From contig NZ_WPAG02000002.1 of assembly GCF_013602415.1 (NCBI RefSeq), positions 744,001-808,000 on the forward strand: a stretch of 64,000 nt of DNA. Direction: 5' to 3'. The notes below the pieces were generated by a model that ran no database searches, was not told where the DNA came from, and saw only the letters and a list, made by a program, of their open reading frames with translations. Within the stretch, counting starts at the first letter, position 1. Each line of letters begins with the position of its first letter. This document shows, one piece after another, positions 36,713-54,708 of this stretch. This DNA comes from Rhodococcus sp. B50 (GTDB taxonomy: Bacteria > Actinomycetota > Actinomycetes > Mycobacteriales > Mycobacteriaceae). The position numbers and the translations under genes are program-made.

Positions 36713-36803
36713 GGGATGCACGCTAGCGGTCGGGCCGTCCCGCGTGCAGGACCACGCTGCGTGTCCCGCACGCAGGAGCACATTGCGTGTCGGTGGGAGC
36801 GCT

Positions 36804-36816
36804 TACTCTGGTTTCC
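36804..36816 (+). promoter_or_regulatory. Leaderless promoter of uvrB
   Basis: TACTCT (36804-36809) is a TANNNT -10 element seven bases before the ATG at 36817. No ribosome binding site precedes that ATG, consistent with a leaderless mRNA. No GAAC-N4-GTTC SOS box is visible nearby. Confidence 0.45.
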
Positions 36817-38976
36817 ATGGCGTTCGCAAGTGAACATCCCGTCGTCGCCCACTCCGAGTTCCGGCCGGTGGGTGAGATCGAGCGCACCGAGGCCCGCTTC
36901 GAGGTCGTCAGCGAATACGAGCCGGCGGGTGACCAGCCCGCCGCCATCGACGAGCTCGAACGCCGGCTGAAGGCGGGGGAGAAGGACGTCGTCCTGCTCG
37001 GTGCCACCGGTACCGGCAAATCCGCCACTACCGCGTGGCTCATCGAGCGCGTCCAGCGTCCCACCCTCGTGATGGCGCCCAACAAGACCCTTGCCGCGCA
37101 GCTCGCCAACGAGCTGCGAGACATGTTGCCCAACAACTCGGTCGAGTACTTCGTCTCGTACTACGACTACTACCAGCCCGAGGCGTACATCGCGCAGACC
37201 GACACCTACATCGAGAAGGACTCGTCGATCAACGACGACGTCGAGCGTCTGCGGCATTCGGCGACTTCGTCGCTGCTGTCGCGTCGCGACGTCGTGGTGG
37301 TCGCGTCCGTCTCGTGCATCTACGGCCTCGGCACCCCGCAGTCCTATCTCGACCGGTCCATCCAGCTCGAGGTGGGTGTGGAGGTGCCGCGCGATGCGTT
37401 GCTGCGCCTGCTCGTCGACGTCCAGTACACCCGCAACGACATGGCGTTCACCCGCGGCTCGTTCCGCGTCAAGGGCGATACCGTCGACATCATTCCCGCC
37501 TACGAGGAACTCGCCGTGCGGATCGAGTTCTTCGGCGACGAGATCGACGCGCTGTACTACCTGCACCCGCTGACCGGCGACGTCGTGCGCAAGGTCGACT
37601 CCCTGCGCATCTTCCCCGCCACCCACTACGTGGCCGGTCCCGAACGCATGGAACGCGCCGTCGCGAGCATCGAAGCCGAACTCGAGGAGCGCCTGGCCGA
37701 TCTGGAGAACCGTGGCAAGCTGCTCGAGGCGCAGCGTCTGCGCATGCGCACCCAGTACGACATCGAGATGATCCGGCAGGTCGGCTTCTGCTCCGGCATC
37801 GAGAACTACTCCCGTCATATCGACGGCCGTCCCGCCGGGTCCGCTCCCGCGACGCTCATCGACTACTTCCCGGAGGATTTCCTTCTGGTCATCGACGAGT
37901 CGCACGTCACCGTGCCGCAGATCGGCGCGATGTACGAAGGCGACATGTCGCGTAAGCGGAACCTCGTCGACTTCGGCTTCCGCCTTCCCTCTGCGGTCGA
38001 CAACCGGCCCCTGACCTGGGAGGAGTTCGCCGCCCGCATCGGGCAGACGGTCTACCTGTCGGCCACCCCCGGCCCATACGAGCTCGGGCAGACCGGGGGC
38101 GAGTTCGTCGAGCAGGTCATCCGCCCCACCGGCCTCGTCGACCCGCAGGTGGTCGTCAAGCCCACCAAGGGCCAGATCGACGATCTCGTGCACGAGATCC
38201 GTGAGCGTGCCGACCGCGACGAGCGCGTCCTCGTCACCACGCTCACCAAGAAGATGGCCGAGGACCTCACCGATTACCTGCTCGAACTCGGCATCCGGGT
38301 GCGCTATCTCCACTCCGACATCGACACCCTGCGGCGCGTCGAACTACTGCGGCAGCTGCGGCTCGGCGAGTACGACGTGCTTGTCGGCATCAATCTGCTC
38401 CGTGAGGGCCTCGACCTTCCCGAGGTGTCGCTGGTCGCGATCCTTGATGCCGACAAGGAGGGCTTCCTGCGGTCGACGACCTCGCTGATCCAGACCATCG
38501 GCCGCGCGGCGCGCAATGTCTCGGGCGAGGTCCACATGTACGCCGACAAGATCACCGACTCGATGGCCCGAGCGATCGAGGAGACCGAACGGCGCCGCGA
38601 GAAGCAGGTCGCCTACAACGCCGAGCACGGTCTCGATCCGAAGCCGCTGCGCAAGAAGATCGCCGACATCCTCGATCAGGTCTATCAGGAGGCCGAGGAC
38701 ACCGAGACCGTCGAGGTGGGCGGCTCCGGCCGCAACGCCTCGCGCGGCCGGCGCGCGCAGGGCGAGTCCGGGCGCGCGGTCAGCTCCGGTGTGGTGGAAG
38801 GTCGCGACACCTCGACGATGCCGCGGGCCGAACTCGCCGATCTCGTGCAGCAGCTCACCGATCAGATGATGCAGGCCGCACGCGACCTGCAGTTCGAGCT
38901 CGCCGCGCGGTTGCGCGACGAGATCTCCGACCTGAAGAAGGAACTGCGCGGCATGGACGCCGCGGGGCTGAAGTAG
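36817..38976 (+). CDS. uvrB: Excinuclease ABC subunit B
   Basis: 719 residues. UvrB loads on DNA with UvrA and verifies damage before UvrC incision. Walker A is LGATGTGKS at 61-69. The beta-hairpin with [11 protein letters not shown], helicase motifs ([28 protein letters not shown]) and the C-terminal UvrC-interacting helices ([19 protein letters not shown]) are present. Start ATG 36817 is chosen over 36787 because a -10 element lies between them. The N-terminal 27 residues before [14 protein letters not shown] extend beyond the mycobacterial form. Confidence 0.95.
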
Positions 38977-39022
38977 CCGCCCGGCCCGGTCGAGGGCCGG
39001 AGACTCGGTAGGGTCCTTTCCC

Positions 39023-39895
39023 ATGGAGCCCTCATCGGCCGGGCGTGCTGCCCGCGCGCTCGAACTGCTGCACTCGGTCGTCTACTTCGCACCGGAGGTC
39101 GCGAGTGAACTCGCCGCGCTGGGCGTCGAGGGGCCGGCCGCACAGTATTTCGGTGGACGCTCGGCGCCCCTGGGTGCCGTCGGACCCGGCGTCGTAACGG
39201 CGACGTTCTACAGTTTCTCGCCCCGTCTGGTGTCCTCGGCCGTCCCGGCGGTGTGGGAGACGGCTGCGCCGGCGGCGATCACGACAGCGCGGTTGCGCGG
39301 GCTCGACGCGCTCTATCGGCGCGTCCTGGGGCAGGACGTGCTCGACTCCGCGGAGATGAGCGAGGCAGCGGATCTTGCCGCCACCGCGGCCCGCGCGATT
39401 CCCGGCCCCGACGGGCGACCGCTCTACGCCGCTTACGCCGACCTGCCCTGGCCCGAACAGGTGCATCTCCGCCTGTGGCACGCGCTGACACTGCTGCGCG
39501 AGTACCGCGGGGACGGCCATATCGCAGCGCTGCAGACGGCGGGGCTGTCGGGGATCGAGTCGCTGGTCACTCACACGGCGACCGGTATCGGATTCGCCAC
39601 CGATCCCGCCCGGAAGCTTCGCGGATGGTCGCGGGACGACTGGGCGGACGCAGAGAAGGGACTGCGTGGGCGCGGCCTGCTGGACAAGCGCGGCGAGCTC
39701 ACCGGGGAAGGGTTCGAGGTCCGCGAGCTCGTCGAGGATCTGACCGACGACCTGGCGGTCGCCCCGTGGGGTGTGGTCGGGGAGGACGGTGTGGAGCGTC
39801 TGCTCGACCTCGCGTTGCCGTGGCGCGACGCGTTCGTCGACGCCGAGGTGTTCCCTGCCGGTCTGTTCGGTCCCCGTTACGGTGACGCGCGGTAA
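39023..39895 (+). CDS. SCO6745-like helix-turn-helix-related protein
   Basis: 290 residues resembling the actinobacterial SCO6745 protein family: ELLHSVVYFAPEV at the start, YFGGRSAPLGAVGPGVVTATFYSFSP, HLRLWHALTLLREYRGDGHIAAL and the winged-helix-like C-terminal part DWADAEKGLRGRGLLDKRGELTGEG. The last segment resembles MarR-type DNA-binding domains. Biochemical role is unknown. It follows uvrB by 46 bases and may be co-transcribed. Confidence 0.8.
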   Translation: MEPSSAGRAARALELLHSVVYFAPEVASELAALGVEGPAAQYFGGRSAPLGAVGPGVVTATFYSFSPRLVSSAVPAVWETAAPAAITTARLRGLDALYRRVLGQDVLDSAEMSEAADLAATAARAIPGPDGRPLYAAYADLPWPEQVHLRLWHALTLLREYRGDGHIAALQTAGLSGIESLVTHTATGIGFATDPARKLRGWSRDDWADAEKGLRGRGLLDKRGELTGEGFEVRELVEDLTDDLAVAPWGVVGEDGVERLLDLALPWRDAFVDAEVFPAGLFGPRYGDAR

Positions 39896-40051
39896 CATCA
39901 AACGCAATTGTGGGATGAGACCCAAACGTCCCACCCGGGCCGCTCGTCCCGCTACTGTCGACGCAGCGTATGGCGGGGGAGCGTGCGTGTCCTCCGTCGA
40001 CGACGGCATCGGCGGCACGCGTCGATGGACCACACACTCGATGGAGGATGA

Positions 40052-40504
40052 ATGAGCGCCTACCGGACCATAGTCGTCGGAACCGACGGTTCCGAATCGT
40101 CGTATCGGGCCGTGGAGAAGGCAGCTGCTCTGGCCGGCGACGCCGGCGCCCAACTGGTGATCGCCTGCGCCTACTACCCGGCCGACCCCAAGGACACCGC
40201 GCAGGCCGCCGACGCGCTGCGCGAGGAGGCGTACCAGGTCACCGGTTCGGCACCGACCTACGAGATCCTGCGCACCGCACGGGAGAAGGCGACCGTGGCG
40301 GGCGCCCGCAAGATCACCGAGCGCCCCATCGTCGGTGCTCCCGTCGAATCGCTCCTCACGCTCGTCGAGGAGGTCGACGCCGATCTCATCGTCATCGGCA
40401 ACCGCGGTCTCAACACGCTGACCGGACGCTTGCTCGGCTCCGTCCCCTCGGACGTCGCCCGCAAGGCCCTGTGCGACGTGCTGGTGGTGCACACCGTCCG
40501 CTGA
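40052..40504 (+). CDS. Universal stress protein (ATP/cAMP-binding type)
   Basis: 150 residues, a single UspA domain. The nucleotide-binding motif G-2X-G-9X-G-S is intact (GNRGLNTLTGRLLGS, about residues 116-130) after VVGTDGSESS near the start. Its place between uvrB and the uvrA block corresponds to the mycobacterial Rv1636 protein, which binds cAMP. It is transcribed alone and converges on the DUF732 lipoprotein gene with four bases between stops. Confidence 0.9.
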   Translation: MSAYRTIVVGTDGSESSYRAVEKAAALAGDAGAQLVIACAYYPADPKDTAQAADALREEAYQVTGSAPTYEILRTAREKATVAGARKITERPIVGAPVESLLTLVEEVDADLIVIGNRGLNTLTGRLLGSVPSDVARKALCDVLVVHTVR

Positions 40505-40508
40505 CGGA

Positions 40509-40931
40509 TCAGCAGTACTCCTCGCGGGCAATCCCGAGGTAGCGGACGGCGGCGTCGTCCGCTGTCATCTGCGACCCCGTGGCCCCCGCGGCATAAGCGG
40601 CGATCGGCCGGAGCGTGGCGAGGACGTCACGCTCCGGCACTCCCGCATTCAACTGGTCGCACACCCCGCGCACCACCGCGAGCACGGTGTCGTCCTTGAC
40701 GTCGGCGACCAGACCGGACGCTTCCAGTGCCTCCTTCACCCGCAGGAAGCGCGCGTCGGGCGGGGTCGTCGACGTCGTCGGCACGATCGAGGCCGTGGAG
40801 GTCGCGGCCTGCGCCTCGTCCGGGGCGGGCGCCCCCGACCCGCAGGCGGCGGAGACGAAGAACCCGATCAGCGCCGCGATCGCCGCGCACCCCGCTCGAC
40901 GTACCCGATGGTGCGCTGCCGAATAGGCCAC
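40509..40931 (-). CDS. DUF732 lipoprotein
   Basis: 140 residues. A signal peptide (12-30) ends in VSAACGS, a lipobox-like site with the modified cysteine at about 30. A Thr/Ser/Pro linker to about 57 follows. The C-terminal 80 residues match the mycobacterial DUF732 domain (FLRVKEALEASGL, VCDQLNAGV, AVRYLGIAREEYC) with its pair of cysteines. Envelope-located, function unknown. Confidence 0.8.
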   Translation of the reverse strand: MAYSAAHHRVRRAGCAAIAALIGFFVSAACGSGAPAPDEAQAATSTASIVPTTSTTPPDARFLRVKEALEASGLVADVKDDTVLAVVRGVCDQLNAGVPERDVLATLRPIAAYAAGATGSQMTADDAAVRYLGIAREEYC

Positions 40932-41013
40932 TTGTTCGTTCCTCCGCGGATGATCCGTCCCGTGTCCCTGCCCGGAAGGACGGTACCCTCCTTCCGGCCG
41001 GCCATGGGTCGGC

Positions 41014-43329
41014 TCAGCAGCGGGTCGGCGCCGCGAGACCCGAGAGCACGTCCGGCAGCGGCTCCGAGTGCACCACCCCGAGACGCTGGGTCGCGCGGGT
41101 CAACGCCACGTACAGATCGTTCATCCCGCGCGAGGAGTCGGCGAGGATCTCGGCCGGTTCGACGAGCAGGACCGCATCGAACTCCAGGCCCTTGACCTCC
41201 TTGACGGTCGCGACCGTGACCGAATCGGACGCGAGATGTTCCCACGCGCCCACGAGGCGTGCGGGAGCGAGCACGGCCGTCGTGCCCGGGCCGGTCTCGG
41301 CGTCGAGAGCGGCCCGCACGGTCGCGGAGACCGCCTCCGCGTCCACGTGCTGCGCCCACGGCTCGAAACCGGATTCGCGCACCGATTGCGGCGGCACCTG
41401 ATCGGGATCGATCTCCGCCAGCACCGCATGCGCGACCCGCATGATCTCCGCGGGGGTGCGGTAGTTGACGGTCAGCTCGGTCTTCTTCCACCGGTTCGCG
41501 ACGTACGGTTCGAGGATCTGCTGCCACGACTCGGTTCCCGCCGGATCACCGGTTTGTGCGGTGTCGCCCACCAGGGTCATCCAGCGATTCGGAATGCGGC
41601 GCATGATCGTTCGCCACGCCATCGCGGAGAGCTCCTGCGCCTCGTCGACGATCACGTGACCGTAGGTCCAGGTGCGATCTCCGGCCGCCCGCTCGGCCGT
41701 GGTCTCGTGGCGGCGGTGGTTCTGCCGTTCGGCGAGCTGAGTGGCATCGATGAGGTCGTACGCCATGAGCAGTTCCGGATCGAGATCGTCCTCGAGGTCC
41801 TGGGGCGCCGAACCGGTGAGGATGTCGAGAGCGCCCTGAGCGTCGGCGATCTGCTTGCGCCAGCGCCGTTTCGCGCGTTCGCGCTCGGCGGCGTCGTCCA
41901 CGCCGAGCAGTTCGGCGAGTTCGTCGAGCAGGGGAGCGTCGGCCGCGCTGAAACGTCCCGGTGCGCCTGGCCGGTGCAGCGCGTCGATCTGCTCGTCGGA
42001 CAGCGCCGGAGCCGCCGACGCGATCCGGTCGCGCGAAGCGAGCAGGTCCGAGAGCACTTGCTGCGGAGACAGTTCCGGCCACAACGCGTCGATCGCGGCG
42101 ATGATGTCGCGGTCCGAACGCATCTCGGACCGGATGTCCTGGATGTCCTCCCGGCTCAACAGATTCGCGCCGCCGAGAGGATTCGATCCGATGATCCCCG
42201 CGAGCTGGTCGGCAAGTGCGTCGATCACCCCGCTCACGAAGATCGGCCGGGCCAGGTTGTGCGGTCGGCGGGACGACCGGGCGCGACCGCGTGCGCGGGT
42301 GACGATCTTGCGGTCGAGCGTGAGCGCATAGGTGTCGAAGCTCAGGTGCACGGGGGAGCGGGGCACCTCCTGCCGGTCGCGGACGGCCTTCTCGAGCACC
42401 TTCACCATGTCCGGGGAACCCTTGAGCTCGCCGCCCTCGGGGCTGTCCTCGACGGTCGGCGTCACCCCCGGATACAGATCGCCGACGGTGGAGAGCAGCA
42501 CTCCGGTCTCACCGAGCGACGGCAGCACCTGACCGATGTAGTCGAGGAAGCGGCTGTTCGGCCCCACGATGAGCACACCGCTCTTGGCCAGCTGCTTGCG
42601 GTAGGTGTAGAGCAGGTAGGCCGCGCGGTGCAGTGCCACCGCGGTCTTGCCGGTTCCCGGACCACCCTGGACGACGAGCACACTGCGATGCTCGGAGCGG
42701 ATGACCGTGTCCTGCTCGGCCTGGATGGTCGCTACGATGTCGTGCATCTGCCCGGTGCGCGCGGCGTTCAGTGCGGCGAGCAACGCCGATTCACCCGCGA
42801 CGCCCCCGGCCGCCTGGGTGTCGGCGTGTTCGAGGGCAGCGTCGAGGTCGAGGTATTCGTCGTGCAGTGCGGTGACGGTCCGGCTCCGGCTGCGGATGTG
42901 CCGTCGCAGCACGACGCCGTCCGGAGCGGCGGGGGTGGCGAGGTAGAAGGGGCGGGCCTGCGGGGCCCGCCAGTCGAGCAGCAGCGACTCGTAGTCGTTG
43001 TCCTCGTCGAGGATGCCGAGCCGACCGATGTACCGGGTCTCCGTGCCGTCCTCCGTCGTCACTTCGGCGTCGGTCCCGTCGTCGCGGACATCGATGCGGC
43101 CGAAGCACAGGCCGTGCTCGGCGGCGTCGTATTTCGCGATGTCCTCGGTGTACATCTGCGTGAAGGACTCGCGTTCGCTGCGCGCCTGAGGGGTGCCTCC
43201 CGTCTCCTTCAGCACGCGGGTCAACCGAGTCTTGGCATAGTCGCGCAGCGCGTCGAGATGCGTGTAGAGCATCGCCACGTAGGCCTGCTCGCGATCGAGC
43301 TCCGGATGGGACGCGCCATCAACCGGCAC
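41014..43329 (-). CDS. helR: HelD/HelR-like RNA polymerase recycling ATPase
   Basis: 771 residues, UvrD-like SF1 helicase of the HelD family. Residues 10-75 form the coiled-coil arm expected for RNA polymerase insertion, Walker A is QGGPGTGKTA (about 221-228), and an IVDEAQE motif, GDTAQTGD and a C-terminal helicase core (YVALTRATQRLGV) are present. HelD-type factors displace stalled RNA polymerase from DNA, and HelR members also give rifamycin tolerance. Whether this one is HelR needs phylogeny. No rifamycin-associated promoter element was recognised upstream. It is transcribed alone. Confidence 0.85.
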   Translation of the reverse strand: MPVDGASHPELDREQAYVAMLYTHLDALRDYAKTRLTRVLKETGGTPQARSERESFTQMYTEDIAKYDAAEHGLCFGRIDVRDDGTDAEVTTEDGTETRYIGRLGILDEDNDYESLLLDWRAPQARPFYLATPAAPDGVVLRRHIRSRSRTVTALHDEYLDLDAALEHADTQAAGGVAGESALLAALNAARTGQMHDIVATIQAEQDTVIRSEHRSVLVVQGGPGTGKTAVALHRAAYLLYTYRKQLAKSGVLIVGPNSRFLDYIGQVLPSLGETGVLLSTVGDLYPGVTPTVEDSPEGGELKGSPDMVKVLEKAVRDRQEVPRSPVHLSFDTYALTLDRKIVTRARGRARSSRRPHNLARPIFVSGVIDALADQLAGIIGSNPLGGANLLSREDIQDIRSEMRSDRDIIAAIDALWPELSPQQVLSDLLASRDRIASAAPALSDEQIDALHRPGAPGRFSAADAPLLDELAELLGVDDAAERERAKRRWRKQIADAQGALDILTGSAPQDLEDDLDPELLMAYDLIDATQLAERQNHRRHETTAERAAGDRTWTYGHVIVDEAQELSAMAWRTIMRRIPNRWMTLVGDTAQTGDPAGTESWQQILEPYVANRWKKTELTVNYRTPAEIMRVAHAVLAEIDPDQVPPQSVRESGFEPWAQHVDAEAVSATVRAALDAETGPGTTAVLAPARLVGAWEHLASDSVTVATVKEVKGLEFDAVLLVEPAEILADSSRGMNDLYVALTRATQRLGVVHSEPLPDVLSGLAAPTRC

Positions 43330-43445
43330 AGGGACTCCTCGGGATAGACAGGACGAGATCGCTCCGCCGTGCGCGGGGTGATGCGTCGACGAAAGTGCCC
43401 GAGAAGTCTAGTCGTCGCCGGAAGGAAACGGACAGAAATCCTGGT

Positions 43446-43492
43446 CACAGCAGTGCGGGCGTGCGATCTGTTCGCACGCCCGCACTGCTGTG
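43446..43492 (-). terminator. Terminator of the DoxX-like gene
   Basis: A 20-bp perfect stem (CACAGCAGTGCGGGCGTGCG) with a 7-base loop, beginning 10 bases after the stop of the leftward DoxX-like gene. Confidence 0.85.
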
Positions 43493-43502
43493 CCGTACTC
43501 GA

Positions 43503-44534
43503 TTACTTCTTCTTCTCGAGCGCCCTCAGGTTCTTCGCGAGCTTCTTCTCCGCCTTCGTGCCCTGCTTGCGGGCGGCCTCGGCGCGCAGGCGTGCCTTCT
43601 CTGCGGCGACGTGGGCCCGAGCGTTCAGGATCGCGGACTGCTCCTCGGCAAGCTTCGCCCACTCCGAGCTGCGATCGACCGTCGTGTCCCACAGCTTCGA
43701 CCCACGCTTGCGGGCCACGTCGGCCAGCTCGGGGGTGCGCTCCCGGGCCAGCCCGAGCAGCTCGGTGCCGCGTTCGCGGGCACCCTCGGCGAGCTCGGGG
43801 GCACGCTCACGCGCAACCCCGAGAATCTCGGCGCCGCGATCGCGCGCCCGCTCGGTCAGCACCGGGCCCCGGTCGCGGGCGACCTCGAGCAGTTCGGTGC
43901 CGCGTTCGCGCGCGACTTCGGCGAGTTCCGGTCCACGTTCCTTGGCGATCTCGAGGAGATGGCCGCCCTGTTCACCGGCCTCTTCGGTCAGTGCCTTCAC
44001 CCGTCCGGCGACGGTGTGCAGCGCTTCGGCCGTGTGGCCGTCCGAGGCGTGGCCGGGCAGGGCGGCGGCCACCGACTTCTGCGCGGCGCGCGCGGCACGA
44101 CGGCCTCGCCAGCCGAGCGACGGCTTGCCTTCGGTGTCGACGGCCGCGATGAGCAGTCCGCCGATCAGGCTCACGTTCTTGATGAGCTGAGTGCGCTGCT
44201 GGGCGCGGGCCTCCGGGTCCTCGACGTTCCAGAAGTCGTGGCCCGCAACGGTGGTGGGCACGAGGCTGCCGACCAGGGCGAGAGCGGACAAGCGCGGCGC
44301 CTTGCCGAGGGCGAACAGGGTGCCGGCGCCGATCTGGACGGCGGCGTTGATCTGTACGAGAGTCTCGGGATTGCTGGGCAGCCGGTCGGTGATCGATGCC
44401 GGCAGTGCGTTCACAGCCTGATCGAGCCCGGGCTGCGCGGCCCCTGCCTTCGGCTCGGGCTTCCGCAGGGCGTCGATACCCCCGGCGATGAAGATGGACG
44501 CGAGCATGGGCCGCGCGATTCTCCGGACGAGCAT
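43503..44534 (-). CDS. DoxX-family membrane protein with 11-residue repeat helix
   Basis: 343 residues in two unlike parts. Residues 1-135 form a DoxX-type membrane domain (RIARPMLASIFIAGGIDALR, AAVQIGAGTLFALGK, IKNVSLIGGLLIAAVD). Residues 186-284 are nine consecutive 11-residue units of the type ARERGTELLEV, followed by a Lys/Ala-rich helix to the end. The ATG at 44532-44534 has GGAGGAA upstream; a longer start at 44594 has none. The repeat part should form a long amphipathic or coiled-coil helix. Function unknown. Confidence 0.82.
   Translation of the reverse strand: MLVRRIARPMLASIFIAGGIDALRKPEPKAGAAQPGLDQAVNALPASITDRLPSNPETLVQINAAVQIGAGTLFALGKAPRLSALALVGSLVPTTVAGHDFWNVEDPEARAQQRTQLIKNVSLIGGLLIAAVDTEGKPSLGWRGRRAARAAQKSVAAALPGHASDGHTAEALHTVAGRVKALTEEAGEQGGHLLEIAKERGPELAEVARERGTELLEVARDRGPVLTERARDRGAEILGVARERAPELAEGARERGTELLGLARERTPELADVARKRGSKLWDTTVDRSSEWAKLAEEQSAILNARAHVAAEKARLRAEAARKQGTKAEKKLAKNLRALEKKK
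43683..43979 (-). repeat. Nine tandem 33-base coding repeats (11-residue units)
   Basis: In-frame repeats within the DoxX-like gene. Each unit encodes A-(R/K)-(E/D)-R-G-x-E-L-x-E-V with acidic, basic and aliphatic residues at fixed positions. At the base level the copies are diverged but still recognisable around CGCGAACGCGGCACC-like segments. Confidence 0.8.
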
Positions 44535-44700
44535 GTGGTTCCTCCCGTGGTCGGCTGTGTTTCCAAACCTTGACACAGGTACCCCGGGCGTCACGGGAAT
44601 ATGCGTGAAGCAAGGCCAAAGGGCACAGAACAGTATTTCGGATGGTACGGAAACCAGTTAATAACAGAATACATCGCGGTGGAGTACCGCCCCTCCCGCA

Positions 44701-46431
44701 TCACTTCGACGGCCTGCCCGCCGCGCGGGCCGACGAGATCCGGGGCGGCCGATCCTCGGTGGTCAACGGCAAGTCCGCGACCTTCTCGAACAGATGCGTA
44801 CCAGCTGCGGTATCGATGCTTCGCTCGACGGTCAGATGCGCGACACGGCCTCGCGTCCGGAGCGTGGCGATCTGATTTCCGAAACTCGGTCCCGACATCC
44901 TCGACCACGAGAACGACGCGACGGGAACTGCCGTCACGCGACCGAGCAGTAGCCGCACGACATGCTCCGCCGTGCGGCTCCATGCAGCGCGGAAGGCGAC
45001 TCGGACGGCTGCGGGGACATGGTTGTGCAACGGTGAACAGGTCAACTGGTAGACCGCACCGGCGGTCGGCGTCCCGAACCGGACACGGGCGGCATACGCA
45101 TGGTGCACGTCGCCCGAGAGGACACAGATCGTCGCGGGCGCACGACCGGACGTCCCGGCGCGCCGCCCGGCGGCGACGTCCCGCAGCAGCCGTCCGAGTC
45201 GCTCGAAAGAGTCGCGAAAGGCCGACCAGTGTTCGAGATCCGCAGCACGACGAAGCTTCTCGGCCCAGCGAGCCCAGCGGTCTCCGCGCGCACCGGACGC
45301 GAGTTTCTCGTCCCAAGCCTCGAGGTCGTGCATCGCGCGAGGGAGCAGCCACGGCAGCGACGTGCCGACCAGCAGATGGTCGTAGTCGCCGTCGGTCTGC
45401 TGCTCGATCCAGTCGAACTCCGGATCGGACACCATGTCCCGCCGGTCGGGCGCAAGCACTCGCCCGCACCGCGAGTCGATCACCAGCAGACGCACCGACC
45501 CGAAATCGCGGCGGTAGGACCACCGTGCACCCGGACCCCCGTCCGCTTCTTCGTCGGCACCGGATGCGAAGACGCGCAGGATCGGTTCGGCGTCCCCGGC
45601 GCAGTTCCGCACCCGCTCGTAGAGCGGCTCCTCGTCCAGCTCGGCGGGGGAGAGGTTTCCGAGATGCTGGTAGATCCAGTACGACGCGAGTGCCCCGACG
45701 ATGCGTTCCTCCCACCACGCGGATGCTTCCATCTCCCTGCGCCACGAGTAAGAGGTGTTCCAGTCGTCGTGCACGTCGTGGTCGTCGAAGATCATCGACG
45801 TCGGCACGTTCGACAGCAGCCACCGGACGTTGTCTTCGGACCACGACCGGTGGTACAGCCAGGTGTACTCCTCGAAGTCACGGACCTGCGCCCCTGGTGG
45901 TTCCGACAGATCGTGCCGCTCACCGACCCGCCGCTTCATTTCCGGGGACAGCTCGTCGGCGTACACCTGATCGCCGAGCAGCAATAAGGCATCGGGCCAC
46001 TCGTCGGTGGGCAGGGAGTGCATGCGCTGCGCGTACGCGACGAGCGCGTCCTTCCCCATGACGGCCGTCGGTTCTGCGCTCTCCGACGCCACGCGGCACG
46101 ACCCGAACGCGAGCACGAAGTTGTCGGTGTCGCCCCCCGAAGTCCGGATCGACGGGGCTGCGTCACCGGCCGGCGGCCACACGAGGTGTCCGTCCGCTCT
46201 CACCTCGTAGGGCGTCTCCGATCTGGCTTCCAGCCCTCGGACGACGATGAGCGCGTAGTGATGGCCCGCGACGGTCCACGTGCGTTCCGAACTGCCGAGC
46301 ACCTCGACCGTGCAGGGCTCGGACGTCTCCACCCAGATCGTGGCGTCCGTGTCGCCGATGTGCCGGAGTACCGGCCCGAGTACGAGATCCGCCACGGTGT
46401 CAGCGCCTTCGTGCTCGAGCGAGCTCGTCAT
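44701..46431 (-). CDS. PhoD-like alkaline phosphatase/metallophosphatase
   Basis: 576 residues of the PhoD-type metallophosphatase family. VLAFGSCR, LLLLGDQVYADEL, IFDDHDVHDDWN and CVLSGDVHHAYAARV supply the metal-binding residues. No signal peptide or Tat motif is visible at the chosen ATG (46429-46431), so it may be cytoplasmic, unlike classical secreted PhoD. A long C-terminal segment (about 445-576) is specific to this actinobacterial subgroup. It diverges from a small acidic protein gene. Substrate unknown; phosphodiesters are typical for the family. Confidence 0.85.
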   Translation of the reverse strand: MTSSLEHEGADTVADLVLGPVLRHIGDTDATIWVETSEPCTVEVLGSSERTWTVAGHHYALIVVRGLEARSETPYEVRADGHLVWPPAGDAAPSIRTSGGDTDNFVLAFGSCRVASESAEPTAVMGKDALVAYAQRMHSLPTDEWPDALLLLGDQVYADELSPEMKRRVGERHDLSEPPGAQVRDFEEYTWLYHRSWSEDNVRWLLSNVPTSMIFDDHDVHDDWNTSYSWRREMEASAWWEERIVGALASYWIYQHLGNLSPAELDEEPLYERVRNCAGDAEPILRVFASGADEEADGGPGARWSYRRDFGSVRLLVIDSRCGRVLAPDRRDMVSDPEFDWIEQQTDGDYDHLLVGTSLPWLLPRAMHDLEAWDEKLASGARGDRWARWAEKLRRAADLEHWSAFRDSFERLGRLLRDVAAGRRAGTSGRAPATICVLSGDVHHAYAARVRFGTPTAGAVYQLTCSPLHNHVPAAVRVAFRAAWSRTAEHVVRLLLGRVTAVPVASFSWSRMSGPSFGNQIATLRTRGRVAHLTVERSIDTAAGTHLFEKVADLPLTTEDRPPRISSARAAGRPSK

Positions 46432-46590
46432 GGGTTTCGAGCGTACTCGCGGCGGTCCTGCCCAGGATGGTTCCGGCGAACTTCGATTCCGGTTCGGCCT
46501 CCGGGATGCCGCGACGGGGAGCACCCTGGAACGGACGCATCCGAATCGACCCACATGGGTCGGTGCTGCGTAGTGGAAGGGGGCCCGGAC

Positions 46591-46857
46591 ATGACCGACG
46601 CAGAGGAACCGACCCGCTGGGACACGCTCGACGAGGACGAGCAACGGCAGGCACGTGAAAAGGCCGAGGAGATCGACCGGATGTACGAGCCCGGGGTTCG
46701 GCCGACCACCGTCGTGCCGGGGACGAACGGGATGGTCTCGGGAACGGCGTTCGCCGACATGGTCGACGAACACGCGAAGGATGAGCTCCCGGCCGGCGGG
46801 CAGTCGACAGCGGGGAAGTCCGACGCGGACGCGAACAGGGAACGCTCGGACGATTGA
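46591..46857 (+). CDS. Small acidic protein of unknown function
   Basis: 88 residues starting at ATG 46591 after GGAAGGGGG. It is highly charged (TRWDTLDEDEQRQAREKAEEIDRMYEPG) with a disordered-looking Gly/Ser/Asp C-terminus and no membrane segment. I do not recognise a family. The good ribosome binding site and divergent position relative to the phosphatase support it as a gene. Confidence 0.65.
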   Translation: MTDAEEPTRWDTLDEDEQRQAREKAEEIDRMYEPGVRPTTVVPGTNGMVSGTAFADMVDEHAKDELPAGGQSTAGKSDADANRERSDD

Positions 46858-46902
46858 GGCGCTGCCGTAGCCGTGAGGCCGTCGGCCACGACCGTGGGCC
46901 GA

Positions 46903-47391
46903 CTACGGCCGCTGCGATCCGGGCTCGGTGCCCGCTGCTGCCCGCACCGCACGGATGATGCCCTGATAGCCCGTGCACCGGCACAGATTGCCGGAGAGCC
47001 CTTCGCGGATGTCGTCGTCGCTCGGCTCGGGGTTGTCTCGCAGGAAGGCGGTGGCCGAGACGATGAATCCGGGTGTGCAGAAGCCGCACTGCAAGCCGTG
47101 CTGGTCGCGGAAGGCTGCCTGCACCGGTGACAATTCTCCGTCCGGCCCGGCGAGTCCTTCGATGGTCGTCAGTTCTGATCCGTCGACCTGGACGGCGAAC
47201 AGTAGGCATGCCCGCACCGCCTCGCCGTCGAGCAGCACCGTGCACGATCCACAGACGCCGTGTTCACATCCCAGATGGGTGCCGGTGAGTCCGCAGCGAT
47301 CGCGGAGATAATCGGCCAGGGTCAGGCGCGGCGGGACCCGGTCGGTGCGATTCGAGCCGTTGATGCGTACTCGAATGTCGATGTCGGTCAC
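46903..47391 (-). CDS. Molybdenum hydroxylase small [2Fe-2S] subunit (CoxS-like)
   Basis: 162 residues. Plant-type [2Fe-2S] ligands C42, C47, C50 and C62 are followed by the second cluster ligands C102, C105, C137 and C139, all present. It carries electrons between the molybdenum and FAD subunits. GTG start follows GGAGG and overlaps the medium-subunit stop (GTGA). A hairpin-like repeat (GTCGGCC/GGCCGAC) just beyond its stop may end the operon. Confidence 0.9.
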   Translation of the reverse strand: MTDIDIRVRINGSNRTDRVPPRLTLADYLRDRCGLTGTHLGCEHGVCGSCTVLLDGEAVRACLLFAVQVDGSELTTIEGLAGPDGELSPVQAAFRDQHGLQCGFCTPGFIVSATAFLRDNPEPSDDDIREGLSGNLCRCTGYQGIIRAVRAAAGTEPGSQRP

Positions 47392-48257
47392 AGGGCCTCC
47401 TTCAACGCTCGCGCCCACGCGCGCGTGACCATCACGGCGCCCACTCGTCGTCGGTACTCAGCGGTGCCGTGGATGTCCGACGGCACCGAGTCGAGCAGAT
47501 CGGTTACCGCGCCGCCGAGATCGGTCGCGTCGATCTCGGTCGCCGCCCGGCCGACGAGCTCCGCTTCCACCGCACGGGCGCGTGCAGGAGCCGGCGAGAG
47601 ACCGAACACGGTGATGGCGCACTGCTCGATTCGCGCGTCGGCGTCGAGTTGCACGGCCACCGCCGCTCCGGCGATCGCGAAATCGCCGCTGCGCCGGGTG
47701 AATTCTTCGATCGCGAAGCCCCACCGGCCGTGCAGGACAGGGAAGGCGATGTCGGTGACGAGTTCGTCGGGTTCCATGGCGGTGGTCCACATGCCGCGGA
47801 AGAACTCGGATGCGGCGATGCTGCGCCGGCCGCGTGGGGACAGGGTGCCGATCGTGGCATCCAGGGTCAGCGCGACAGCCGGATATTCGGCGGCGGCATC
47901 GGCGTGCGCGAGGGATCCGCCGAGGGTGCCGCGATTGCGGATCTGGAAATGCCCGATGAGCGGTGTGGCCCGGGCGAGGAGGGGCACGAGTCGCCGGATA
48001 TCGGCGTCGCGGCCGATCGATGAGTGCGTGGTCGTTGCGCCGATCCGCACTGTGGTCCCTTCCGTCCGGATACCGTGCAACTCGGTGAGTCGACGAAGGT
48101 CGACGAGATGTCCGAAGGTGGCGAGTCGCAGCGTCAGCAATGGCATCAGGCTCTGGCCGCCCGCGATGAATTTCGCGTCGTCGCCGAATCGGGAGACGAG
48201 ATCGACTGCTTCGGCCGGGGTGTGCGGGGCGTGGTACTCGAACGCCGCGGGTTTCAC
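47388..48257 (-). CDS. Molybdenum hydroxylase FAD subunit (CoxM-like)
   Basis: 289 residues. The FAD-binding motifs AGGQSLMPLL (about 32-41) and the GTLGGSLAHAD segment are typical of CoxM-type medium subunits. GTG start 48255-48257 has GGAGG upstream and overlaps the large-subunit stop. It passes electrons from the iron-sulfur subunit to an unknown acceptor. Confidence 0.9.
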   Translation of the reverse strand: MKPAAFEYHAPHTPAEAVDLVSRFGDDAKFIAGGQSLMPLLTLRLATFGHLVDLRRLTELHGIRTEGTTVRIGATTTHSSIGRDADIRRLVPLLARATPLIGHFQIRNRGTLGGSLAHADAAAEYPAVALTLDATIGTLSPRGRRSIAASEFFRGMWTTAMEPDELVTDIAFPVLHGRWGFAIEEFTRRSGDFAIAGAAVAVQLDADARIEQCAITVFGLSPAPARARAVEAELVGRAATEIDATDLGGAVTDLLDSVPSDIHGTAEYRRRVGAVMVTRAWARALKEAL

Positions 48258-50605
48258 AGCGCCTCCATCTTTTCGGCGTGCGCCCGATCGATCATCGAGA
48301 CGATCCTGGCCGGCGAGAGCGGCAGGTGGGAGATCTCCACCCCGAACGGACTCAGCGCATCCGCTACCGCGTTGAGTACGGCCGGGGTCGCGCCGATCGC
48401 GCCGCCCTCTCCGACCCCCTTGACATTGCCCGGTCCCGGACTCGGGGTCTCGATGTGCCCGATCTCGATCGTCGGTGCCTCGGTCGCGGTCGGAAGCAGA
48501 TAATCCATGAAGGTCGTGGCGATCGGGTTCCCGGCATCGTCGTAGGGCAGGTGTTCGTAGAGTGCCCCGCCGATTCCCTGCACCGTGCCGCCGCAGATCT
48601 GACCTTCGACGACGTTCGGGTTGATCATCGCGCCGCAGTCCTCGCTGACGATGTACCGCAGCAGGGTCACCTTGCCGGTTTCGATATCCACCTCGCAGGT
48701 GCACAGGTGGGTCGCGTTGGCCCAGATCGCCATATGAGGTGTGCGGTACCGGCCGCTCGCTTCGAGTCCCGGCGGAACACCGGGCGGCAGGCCGTCGCCC
48801 TGGAAGTACGCGATGTCGGCGATCTCGGCGATCGTCAGTCGTGGACCGGGATCGTTCCGGAGCCTCGCGATCCCCTCGGCGAACACCACGTCCTCGGGCA
48901 GAACATTCAGGCGGTGAGCGGCGATCGCGACGATGCGTTCTCGCAGTACCGACGCGGTCTCGGCAATCGCACCCGCGGTCATCGAGCCCGAGCGACTGCC
49001 GCCGGTACCGCCACCGAACGGGGTGATCGAGGTGTCACCCTGGATCGTGCGAACGTCGGCGATCGGGACGCCCAGAGCGTCCGCCGTCAACTGCACGACG
49101 GTCGTCTCGATACTGTTGCCCGCCGAACCTCCCGCCACGTACACGTTGACCTTGCCGGACGGTTCGATCCGGATGGTCGCGCCTTCGGTGCTGTGGAATG
49201 CGGTGCTGCCGGTCGTCGGCTCCAGATACGTGCACGTGCCTACGCCGAGATAGCGGCCCTGCTCGCGGGCGCGACGCTGATCGGCGCGGAACCCGTCGTA
49301 ACCGAGCATCCTGACCGCCTGCTCGAGGGTCTCGAGCGGCGAGACATGGTCGTGCGGCATGCCGTTCGGGTTCATCATCGGCAGGTCTTCCTGCCGCAAC
49401 ATGTTGCGTCGACGAAGTTCTATGGGGTCGATGCCGATTCGGCGGGCAGCCTGGTCGAGGAGGAGTTCGCGGGTGACCGACTCGAACTGCCACGGACCGC
49501 GATAGGCGAGGCGCCCGACCGTGTTGGAGTACACGAACTTCGAACTGAACGACGCGTCGGTGATCCGGTACGGCCCGGGAAACAGGAGGCCGACGACCAC
49601 ACCTGCGGTGATGGGCGACGGAGTGGGGTATGCACCGACGTTCTGCACGTGATCGATCCCCGCCGCCAGGATTCGGCCGTCGGAATCGAAAGCCATTCGC
49701 ACATCGGCATGTTCGTGGCGTGCCATACCCGACGCCATCAAGTGTTCCTGCCGGTCCTCGATCCACTTGACGGCGCGGCCGAGTTTGCGGGCCGCGAGTT
49801 GCACGCAGATCTCCTCCCGCAGCGGCGCCACCTTGAGCCCGAAGCCACCGCCGGTATCGCGGGCGATCACGCGCACCTGATGCTCGTCGATCCCGAGGAG
49901 CCGGGCACAGAAGCCCCGTACCTCGTGCGGTGACTGCGTCGAGATCCACACGGTCATCTCCGCGGTGGGAGCGGACCACTCGGCGACGACCCCGCGGGTT
50001 TCCATCGGCACCGGGATGTAGGCCTGCTGGAAGATCGTCTGCTCCACCACGTGTGGAGCGGTCTCGAAGATCGGATCGAGATCCGCGGCCGGACGACCGG
50101 CCATCTCGCCGGCCGAATTCCCGGCGAACCCGGCGTGGACCAGGTGGGGGGACGTGTGGGCGGTGGTGTAGTCCACCACCGCGTCGAGTGGTTCGTAGTC
50201 GACATCGACGAGTTCGACCGCGTCCTCCGCCACGTACCGGTCGCAGGCGATCACCATCGCGACCGGGTCGCCCACGAATCGAACCTCCTCCTCGGCCAGA
50301 GGCGGGCGGGGCACGGGAGGTAGGCCGGGCATGTCCAGCGCGTAGGAGATGCGGTGCGCGACGGGCCCGAGTTCGGCCGCGGTGTACACGGCGACGACCC
50401 CGTCGAGTTCGGTTGCGGCGGCGACGTCGATATCGATGATGCGCGCACGGGCGAAGGGGCTGCGCACGAAGCACACGTGCACCATGCCGGGGCGGGTGAC
50501 GTCGTCGACGAACGTTCCCGCACCGGTCACCAACCGCAGGTCCTCGACCCGCGGAACGGATGTGCCCACGCTCCCGCGGGTGGGGGGTGCCGCTATGTCG
50601 GTCAT
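48254..50605 (-). CDS. Molybdenum hydroxylase large subunit (CoxL-like, atypical active-site loop)
   Basis: 783 residues with the xanthine oxidase-family fold. The segments GGGFGLK, the FGGGTGGSRS loop and the C-terminal GVGEGGAIGATPAVLNAVADAL with the catalytic Glu region are present. The loop that carries CSFR in form I and GAGR in form II CO dehydrogenases reads AYRGPW (367-372). It is therefore not a canonical CO dehydrogenase; the substrate is probably another small organic molecule. First gene of a three-gene operon in L-M-S order, without coxD/E-type maturation genes nearby. Confidence 0.88.
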   Translation of the reverse strand: MTDIAAPPTRGSVGTSVPRVEDLRLVTGAGTFVDDVTRPGMVHVCFVRSPFARARIIDIDVAAATELDGVVAVYTAAELGPVAHRISYALDMPGLPPVPRPPLAEEEVRFVGDPVAMVIACDRYVAEDAVELVDVDYEPLDAVVDYTTAHTSPHLVHAGFAGNSAGEMAGRPAADLDPIFETAPHVVEQTIFQQAYIPVPMETRGVVAEWSAPTAEMTVWISTQSPHEVRGFCARLLGIDEHQVRVIARDTGGGFGLKVAPLREEICVQLAARKLGRAVKWIEDRQEHLMASGMARHEHADVRMAFDSDGRILAAGIDHVQNVGAYPTPSPITAGVVVGLLFPGPYRITDASFSSKFVYSNTVGRLAYRGPWQFESVTRELLLDQAARRIGIDPIELRRRNMLRQEDLPMMNPNGMPHDHVSPLETLEQAVRMLGYDGFRADQRRAREQGRYLGVGTCTYLEPTTGSTAFHSTEGATIRIEPSGKVNVYVAGGSAGNSIETTVVQLTADALGVPIADVRTIQGDTSITPFGGGTGGSRSGSMTAGAIAETASVLRERIVAIAAHRLNVLPEDVVFAEGIARLRNDPGPRLTIAEIADIAYFQGDGLPPGVPPGLEASGRYRTPHMAIWANATHLCTCEVDIETGKVTLLRYIVSEDCGAMINPNVVEGQICGGTVQGIGGALYEHLPYDDAGNPIATTFMDYLLPTATEAPTIEIGHIETPSPGPGNVKGVGEGGAIGATPAVLNAVADALSPFGVEISHLPLSPARIVSMIDRAHAEKMEAL

Positions 50606-50637
50606 GCGTCTCCTCGCTCCGCCGGAGGACCAGAGGG

Positions 50638-50653
50638 TCGTACTTCAGTACGA
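50638..50653. promoter_or_regulatory. Palindrome upstream of the hydroxylase operon
   Basis: TCGTACT-TC-AGTACGA, a 16-base perfect palindrome 33 bases upstream of the large-subunit start. Candidate operator for a TetR- or GntR-type regulator encoded elsewhere. Confidence 0.5.
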
Positions 50654-50670
50654 GACGAGAAATGTGCACA

Positions 50671-50691
50671 ATCGAGAATTTCGCTCTCGAT
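50671..50691. promoter_or_regulatory. Second inverted repeat upstream of the hydroxylase operon
   Basis: ATCGAGA-N7-TCTCGAT, 66-86 bases upstream of the large-subunit start. Its sequence differs from the palindrome at 50638, so a second factor or chance is possible. The rest of the 286-base gap to the hydrolase gene holds no gene that I can support. Confidence 0.35.
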
Positions 50692-50891
50692 CGGGGCAGA
50701 CGATACACCGCGGTGCACGTTCGGTGACCGAAACGGGTAGATCCGAGTCATCGTTGCGCCGGTATGTCGACGCCGTTCGAAGTGCGGTCTCCGGGCGACC
50801 CGACGTCTACGACCACACCCGCGAGCGGACGGTGTCTGTCATCGGAAGGCGCTTGCTGCCCGCCCGACGACGTGTGCTGCGTGCAGAACGG

Positions 50892-51581
50892 TCACCAGCC
50901 GCGCTCCCGCCACTCTCCGAGATGCGGTCGCTCGGCTCCGAGGGTCGAGTCCTTGCCGTGCCCCGGATAGAAGATCGTCTCGTCGTCGAACCGGTCGAAG
51001 ATCTTGGACTCCACGTCGCCGAGCAGGGAGCGGAAGGCGTCGTCGTCCGGGGTCTTGCCGACCCCGCCGGGGAAAAGCGAGTCGCCGGTGAAGATGTGCG
51101 CGCGGCCCGCGCCCTGTTCCGTGAGGACCAGTGCGACCGACCCCGGGGTGTGCCCTGAGAGGTGGATCACCTCGAGATTCAGCTCACCGATCTGCACAGT
51201 GTCGCCCTCGGCCAGGATCCGGTCGGGCGTCACCGGCAGGGGAGCGGCGTCGAGTTCGTGCGCCGCCGTCGGCACACCGGTCTCCGCGGCGACCCGCTCG
51301 AGGCCCTGCCAGTGATCCCAGTGCTGATGGGTGGTGACGATCAGCTCGAGTTCCGGTGCGTTGTCGCGGAGGAACTGCACGAGCCGTCCGGGTTCGTTTG
51401 CGGCATCGATGAACACGGACTTGCCGGTCGCGTCGTCGGTGACGAGATAGGTGTTGTTGTTCATCTCGCCGACGGCGAGTTTGACGATGCTCGCTCCGGG
51501 AATCCTTCGGCGTTGCGCGGGTCCGCCGGGAGTGACGTCGCCGGTGTAGGTGTCCTCGATGATCACGGGCTGCTGCGTCAT
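50892..51581 (-). CDS. Metallo-beta-lactamase-fold hydrolase
   Basis: 229 residues. The zinc motif reads HQHWDH (H85, H87, D89, H90), followed by GHTPGS, FTGDSLF and GHGKDS, the layout of glyoxalase II-like hydrolases. It corresponds in position to the leftward MBL gene beside uvrA in mycobacteria. It diverges from uvrA with about 150 bases between starts. It is cytoplasmic, without a signal peptide. Thioester hydrolysis is the usual activity of this subgroup; the substrate is unknown. Confidence 0.9.
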
Positions 51582-51732
51582 GCAGCCAACCTACCTTCGC
51601 GTGCGCGCGCAGGAGTGCCGGACGTGCGGTTCGTCGACCGGGATGCGGTTCGTCGGCACGGAAACGTGTCGGTACCCGCGCCTACCATGGCTGAGGGCCG
51701 AACTGCGGCCTTGTCTACAGGAAGGATGTGGC

Positions 51733-54707
<2,975 letters not shown>

Positions 54708-54708
<1 letters not shown>

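Follow-up and report, generated by a model that had tools for sequence, protein, structure and literature searches.

The doxX gene studied here lies on the minus strand of the window, the whole analysed stretch of 64,000 nucleotides from Rhodococcus sp. B50, and extends from an ATG at 44534 to a stop codon at 43503, encoding a protein of 343 amino acids (43503-44534). A possible GTG start at 44594 was set aside because conservation in the family begins at the ATG. Two plus-strand open reading frames (43395-44573 and 43369-44190) were rejected as GC-rich shadows since the codon-position mismatches fit the minus frame. A perfect inverted repeat of 16 bases (43450-43488, arms read by eye), which resembles a terminator without a T run, sits between the doxX stop codon and the helicase gene.

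The gene belongs to a conserved neighbourhood (window positions 36787-54708) that holds uvrB, HTH_67, Usp, helicase, doxX, metallo-beta-lactamase and uvrA genes. In the clade of the window, uvrB and the HTH_67 and Usp genes lie on one side of doxX, and the metallo-beta-lactamase gene and uvrA on the other. Two further genes between doxX and the lactamase gene, one PhoD-like (44701-46773) and one molybdopterin-binding (48254-50605), occupy that place in 3 and 2 of 80 loci, respectively. The helicase gene is present at 47 of the 80 loci, and in 39 of these 47 it follows doxX on the same strand within 250 nucleotides. Its product is a UvrD-type helicase according to Pfam, presumably of the HelD/HelR-like kind. 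The Mycobacterium loci have instead an RDD-family gene as neighbour (17 of 23 by blastp, with a Pfam check on two), and the RDD-bearing rows form one supported group in the domain tree. One locus (L025) adjoins the Mycobacterium rows in this tree, retains the helicase gene and carries a SigF-type box 10 nucleotides before the start. Its placement, in a tree with many unresolved forks, suggests that the helicase and RDD contexts belong to one lineage.

The earlier note had assigned a DoxX-type membrane domain to this protein, and the Pfam search bears this out: PF07681 covers residues 6-99 (44238-44519, minus strand) and scores 37.7 bits, the Pfam gathering cut-off being 23.6. The same model matched all of the 20 family members searched (E<=0.1), and the related SURF4 and HR_lesion families gave matches below cut-off in the window protein. 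An AlphaFold2 model built from 20 aligned sequences places helices at residues 2-24, 26-43, 56-76, 80-98, 107-132 and 140-157, followed by a single helix from 170 to 342; those at 2-24, 56-76, 80-98 and 107-132 are the predicted membrane helices. The model has a mean pLDDT of 69.6 and a pTM of 0.37, with confidence of 35-60 across about residues 151-240 and up to 95 near the C-terminal end. A fold search with it gave no match at E<=0.001; the hits to the DoxX-like TMEM35A/NACHO (E 1.6) and to proteins with long helices, VIPP1 among them, were non-significant and were discarded. The fourth membrane helix is followed by invariant columns, DTEGKPSLGWR, and a basic stretch (residues 133-158; 44061-44138, minus strand). 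This stretch contains six Lys/Arg and two Asp/Glu, the N-terminus three Lys/Arg and no Asp/Glu, and the second outer loop is acidic. The positive-inside rule is an established principle of membrane protein topology. Applied to these charge clusters, it indicates that the C-terminal tail probably lies on the cytoplasmic side of the inner membrane.

This tail contains a tandem array with a period of 11 residues. Translation confirmed that nucleotides 43683-43979 (minus strand) encode residues 186-284, which had been described as nine uninterrupted copies of A-R-E-R-G-x-E-L-x-E-V. The motif A-(R/K)-(E/D/K)-R recurs every 11 residues exactly in eight of the nine steps (residues 197, 208, 219, 230, 241, 252, 263 and 274); few units fit the literal consensus, and the first step, AGEQGGHLLEI, is degenerate. 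The array is indeed continuous, and the family profile extends it to 11 units over residues 182-302 (43629-43991, minus strand), beyond which the predicted helix ends in a stretch rich in Lys/Arg (residues 303-343; 43506-43628, minus strand). Lags of 11 and 22 gave self-identities of 0.50 and 0.57 over residues 181-285, against a best value of 0.28 among 2000 shuffles at lags 5-44, and lag-11 identity did not exceed 0.14 in 52 control windows of 150 amino acids from eight neighbouring proteins. The repeat is thus real and exceeds chance. The stronger 22-residue super-period, which the earlier note did not mention, accompanies prolines in alternate units (RGPELAEVARERGTELLEVARDRGPVL). The power of the hydrophobicity signal was 133 at 98 degrees, the angle of an 11/3 helix, and 16 at the heptad angle of 102.9 degrees. 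This periodicity analysis, which had been suggested as a check, rules out a plain heptad coiled coil.

Matches to the protein at E<=1e-5 were found in 52 of 61 genomes (its own and 60 relatives). A scan of named genomes confirmed 533 places, and the 80 best of these, which were kept, came mainly from Rhodococcus, Mycobacterium/Mycolicibacterium, Gordonia, Williamsia, Nocardia and Prescottella. After removal of N-truncated and duplicate entries, 111 loci gave 97 distinct complete proteins, on which the counts are based. The comparison of repeat number across strains that had been proposed shows that it varies: an iterated 11-residue profile, which began from a typed seed and is thus biased toward it, found 1195 units, with a median of 12 per protein and a range of 1 to 21. 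Successive units were spaced by exactly 11 residues in 1029 of 1098 cases. Among family tails of at least 90 residues, which come from related proteins and are not independent events, the best lag was 11, 22 or 33 in 96 of 96 (2 of 52 control windows) and the hydrophobicity peak fell at 97.2-99.2 degrees in 93 of 96. In other families of the order, the DoxX domain (E<=1e-10) was found in 16 of 24 genomes, at 17 places. Four of these tails were too short for periodicity analysis; the best lag of the 13 longer ones was 11 in six, 22 in one and neither in six, and the periodic tails differ from those of the window family in residue make-up. Ala, Gly, Ser and Lys abound in the long tails of two DoxX proteins from one such family (L126 and L127), which are built of 11- and 22-residue repeats.

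Several loci of the survey have peculiarities of their own. R. globerulus (L042 and L046) and ARC_M6 (L041 and L057) each possess two copies of the doxX gene. The frame is broken before the domain and in the tail in Rhodococcus sp. JCM 9791 (L019) and in L071, both from draft assemblies. A record labelled Kitasatospora arboriphila (L110) has a domain identical to that of L026 of the window's family, which suggests that its assembly is contaminated or mislabelled.

The wide range of unit numbers would be expected of a neutral low-complexity tail, prone to slippage and devoid of any specific role, and one near relative (L010) carries exactly 11 extra residues in its array, which implies that units are gained or lost whole. 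However, the changes within the array fall mostly at third codon positions, as do 33 of the 41 mismatches with a relative (L005), so that the protein sequence of the array is under selection. As the 11-residue period was also kept in every long tail, we regard a neutral tail as very improbable.

The 1195 units define a consistent chemistry. Position 1 is Leu, Trp, Phe or Ile (92% bulky), position 2 Ala, position 3 Glu/Asp, position 4 Val, Leu, Thr or Ala and position 5 Ala (92%); position 6 is Arg, Ala, Gln or Lys, about two-thirds charged or amide, position 7 Glu, Asp or Lys, position 8 Arg/Lys (86%), position 9 Gly, Ala or Ser, position 10 Ala, Ser, Pro or Thr and position 11 Glu/Lys. On an 11/3 helix, the apolar face is bordered on both sides by basic positions, 8 at -61 and 6 at +103 degrees from its centre, and the acidic positions 11, 7 and 3 lie at 127-168 degrees from it, a class A layout. 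Prolines in the units (251 in number) fall at position 10 in 187 cases, and 101 of the 154 listed intervals between proline-bearing units measure two units. An aromatic residue occupies position 1 at least once in 88 of the 96 proteins with at least four units.

This chemistry has to be weighed between a helix lying on a membrane and a hendecad coiled coil. In the latter, right-handed or untwisted, the tails would pair through positions 9, 1, 2 and 5, and the resulting scaffold would cluster DoxX units or reach a polar or division partner. These four positions do have the 3-4-4 spacing of a hendecad core in the family profile, and the 11/3 hydrophobicity period fits such a coil. The only other protein of the same genome below E 1e-3 was Wag31, a weak match, which has an 11-residue repeat of its own (SDARTRSEAMI type; L135, C2:616986-617288) whose hydrophobicity peak likewise lies near 98.8 degrees; hendecads therefore occur in two unrelated proteins of this genome that are linked to the envelope. 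The NCBIfam Wag31 model matched 7 of 20 family members at E<=0.01, and the window protein itself obtained 23.2 bits against the cut-off of 260 (NF050102). The M. smegmatis protein MSMEG_3255, considered below, is listed in the FhaA interactome table of PMC11898655, although with two membrane helices, which disagrees with the four predicted here. Against pairing, the arginines on both flanks would meet each other across the coil interface, where they would repel, while they would be attracted to lipid phosphates; Pro, Gly and Trp/Phe are also frequent in the tails, unlike the Wag31 repeat. These features favour a surface helix. A HeliQuest-type lipid-binding score of 0.26 with zero net charge counts against it. 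The HeliQuest threshold is near 0.68, and the group 3 LEA consensus scored 0.16. We consider the coiled coil rather unlikely, and it ranks next after the membrane helix as its main rival.

Comparison with solved structures gave partial support to the lipid-surface class named in the earlier note. Apolipoprotein A-I was the chief natural match of the family profile in the PDB, a weak one (E 0.004-0.07) that spans about 107 residues in most cases, and argues for a surface helix. The best match was a designed helical protein (E 1.1e-10), and the others comprised further designed helical proteins, ATP synthase b and apolipophorin III. The tail searched by its sequence had no match to solved structures at E<=1. 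Likewise, the Pfam apolipoprotein family PF01442 (Apolipoprotein A1/A4/E) did not match the window protein at E<=1 and matched 4 of 20 family members at E<=0.1 (best E 1e-4). The lipid droplets proposed in the same context gained no support. A protein of the droplet surface could be envisaged, since LPD06283/MLDS, the major droplet protein of Rhodococcus, has been assigned an apolipoprotein domain and some family members weakly match PF01442. A multi-helix membrane anchor such as that of the DoxX family misfits the monolayer of a droplet, though, and family members with short tails occur outside oleaginous genera. DoxX was absent from the main texts of the lipid-droplet papers searched, and the sole paper in which a literature search met the terms was an unrelated review. 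The chance that this is a droplet protein is slight, and nothing was found in support of the DNA-associated role that had also been put forward.

The likeness to LEA proteins, known for protecting plants against drought, was upheld at the level of the pattern. The published rule for group 3 LEA proteins calls for apolar residues at positions 1, 2, 5 and 9 and charged or amide residues at 3, 6, 7, 8 and 11, as in TAQAAKEKAGE (PMC8123400), and the profile of the 1195 units obeys it in the same register, with Arg replacing Lys. LEA_4 (PF02987) had no match in the same genome at E<=1 or among 20 family members at E<=0.1, and membership in it was rejected. Taken together, these membership tests indicate that the window protein is a DoxX-domain protein and not a member of LEA_4, the apolipoproteins or Wag31. 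The fit to the rule would also agree with a molecular shield, unfolded in water and structured once dried, that prevents proteins from aggregating, with the DoxX domain serving just to bring the tail close to the membrane; bacterial LEA3 domains are reported to act as such anti-aggregation shields. Tethering is nevertheless ill-suited to a soluble shield, and position 1 is much more hydrophobic than in the LEA consensus. We judge a shield improbable.

A stress role, raised as conceivable in the earlier note, gained support from the upstream sequences and from published work on a mycobacterial ortholog. The motif GTTT-N14-17-GGG[TA]A, a SigF-type promoter, ends 10-11 nucleotides before the start in 22 of 23 Mycobacterium loci (shuffled controls: mean 0.04, maximum 2), and these orthologs appear to be activated by SigF, a general stress regulator. 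Upstream of the window gene there was no strict match to this motif. Aligned upstreams inspected by eye revealed a promoter-like pair, GCAT (44601-44604) and GGGTA (44580-44584), 16 nucleotides apart on the minus strand, and G(C/A/G)AT-N15/16-GGGTA is kept in all 17 aligned upstreams of the window clade. The pair is suggestive of a SigF-like -10 box with a divergent -35; the SigF box is clear in Mycobacterium and not in the window clade. Among the 74 upstreams from other genera, 5 had the strict motif and 21 a looser form (shuffle means 0.2 and 1.0); one clade, with GCTT-N15/16-GGGTA 89-108 nucleotides before the start, accounts for 15 of the 21. Other loosened patterns, applied to all 96 upstreams, gave 44 (shuffle mean 12.3) but 29 on the reverse strand, and were dropped. 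GTTT-N18-GGGAG found 7 nucleotides before the start in five near relatives (N16 in a sixth) was taken as a ribosome-binding site.

In M. smegmatis, MSMEG_3255 (DoxX) appears with -3.16/-5.18 in the sigF mutant table of PMC4694148, where the motif GTTT-N15-GGGAA is given at 36 nt for this gene and the identical motif at 923 nt for MSMEG_3254 (RDD). The resulting 887 nucleotides between the two starts would fit a DoxX domain plus about 125-140 residues, and from these promoter distances we infer that MSMEG_3255 carries a tail. MSMEG_3255-3254 is among the operons confirmed and picked for RT-PCR in PMC5741613. Both genes were raised (intensity ratios 1.3 and 1.0) in the log phase of a lineage taken through repeated rounds of spray-drying and regrowth, according to the data tabulated in PMC5445863; the authors linked this lineage to raised SigF output, so that the rise is not independent of SigF. 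The biofilm phenotype of the M. abscessus DoxX protein MAB_4706c was not used, as its MmpS/MmpL operon is unlike both contexts found here.

We propose, at a probability somewhat below even, that the protein is induced by stress and places an amphipathic helix, anchored by DoxX, on the cytoplasmic face of the membrane. The DoxX domain would hold the protein in the inner membrane and leave its C-terminus on the cytoplasmic side, and the tail would be a conditional helix, amphipathic with an 11/3 period, that lies along the inner leaflet. Lipid would be contacted by Leu/Trp/Phe, Ala and Gly/Ala, Glu/Asp would point toward the cytoplasm, Arg at both edges of the apolar face would reach lipid phosphates, and Pro/Gly, often in every second unit, would allow the helix to bend. 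During drying, osmotic or stationary-phase stress the tail might thereby coat and stabilise the membrane, much as a group 3 LEA protein or an apolipoprotein would if tethered to it. This tethered helix is favoured by the mycobacterial SigF-type promoters, the published sigF dependence and operon, and the rise in the lineage selected by spray-drying. The fit to the LEA rule also speaks for it, together with the group 3 LEA proteins LEAM and DosH being reported at membranes (PMC8123400). It is weakened by the low HeliQuest-type score, the Wag31 matches and the unmatched LEA_4 model, as well as by the missing PF01442 match of the window protein, the designed protein as best profile match and the unclear SigF box in the window clade.

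A broader statement, which we put forward with more doubt, would be that mycolic-acid actinobacteria have their own, tethered equivalent of LEA proteins and apolipoproteins: an 11/3 helix, anchored by DoxX and induced by general stress, which would line the inner leaflet when cells dry out or meet osmotic stress, with unit number tuning its reach. It would take in the 5 to 21 units of nearly all members and the recurrence of the 11-residue rhythm in some other families of the order. If true, it would explain a means by which mycobacteria and rhodococci guard the inner membrane in dryness and dormancy-like stress, give a role to a DoxX lineage annotated solely by its domain, and add a case of LEA/apolipoprotein-type helices hard-wired to a membrane anchor. 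The component parts, DoxX and an 11-mer amphipathic helix, are of known kinds. A repeat tail on a DoxX protein was not found named in the titles and abstract openings searched, a search mostly outside subscription papers, nor did the literature covered describe the fusion as a conserved one, the strictness of its 11/3 design or the mycobacterial SigF link.

Among known systems, Rv3005c (of the SodA-SseA-DoxX membrane oxidoreductase complex), Rv2617c and MSMEG_3255 have in common with the window protein their DoxX annotation; MSMEG_3255 shares in addition the promoter layout and RDD neighbour of the mycobacterial orthologs found here. No tail is described for these three proteins in the published passages covered. 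Wag31/DivIVA resembles the family in its 11-residue repeat with Ala at position 5 and basic residues at 6 and 8, and differs by an acidic position 4 and the lack of a membrane domain; unlike the family tails, the 90 residues of its repeat contain no Pro, one Gly and no aromatics. Group 3 LEA proteins, including Deinococcus DR_1172 and DosH, are alike in their tandem 11-mers of the same apolar/charged register, their variable unit number and their stress regulation, known here through the ortholog. Unlike them, the window family joins the array to a DoxX membrane domain and has Leu/Trp/Phe at position 1, where the LEA consensus is far less hydrophobic, and Arg in place of Lys. The exchangeable apolipoproteins (ApoA-I, PF01442) and apolipophorin III share with it the 11/22-residue amphipathic helix and recurrent prolines, and presumably also the class-A-like charge arrangement. 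In contrast to apolipoproteins, the window family is membrane-anchored, bacterial and built of regular 11-mers.
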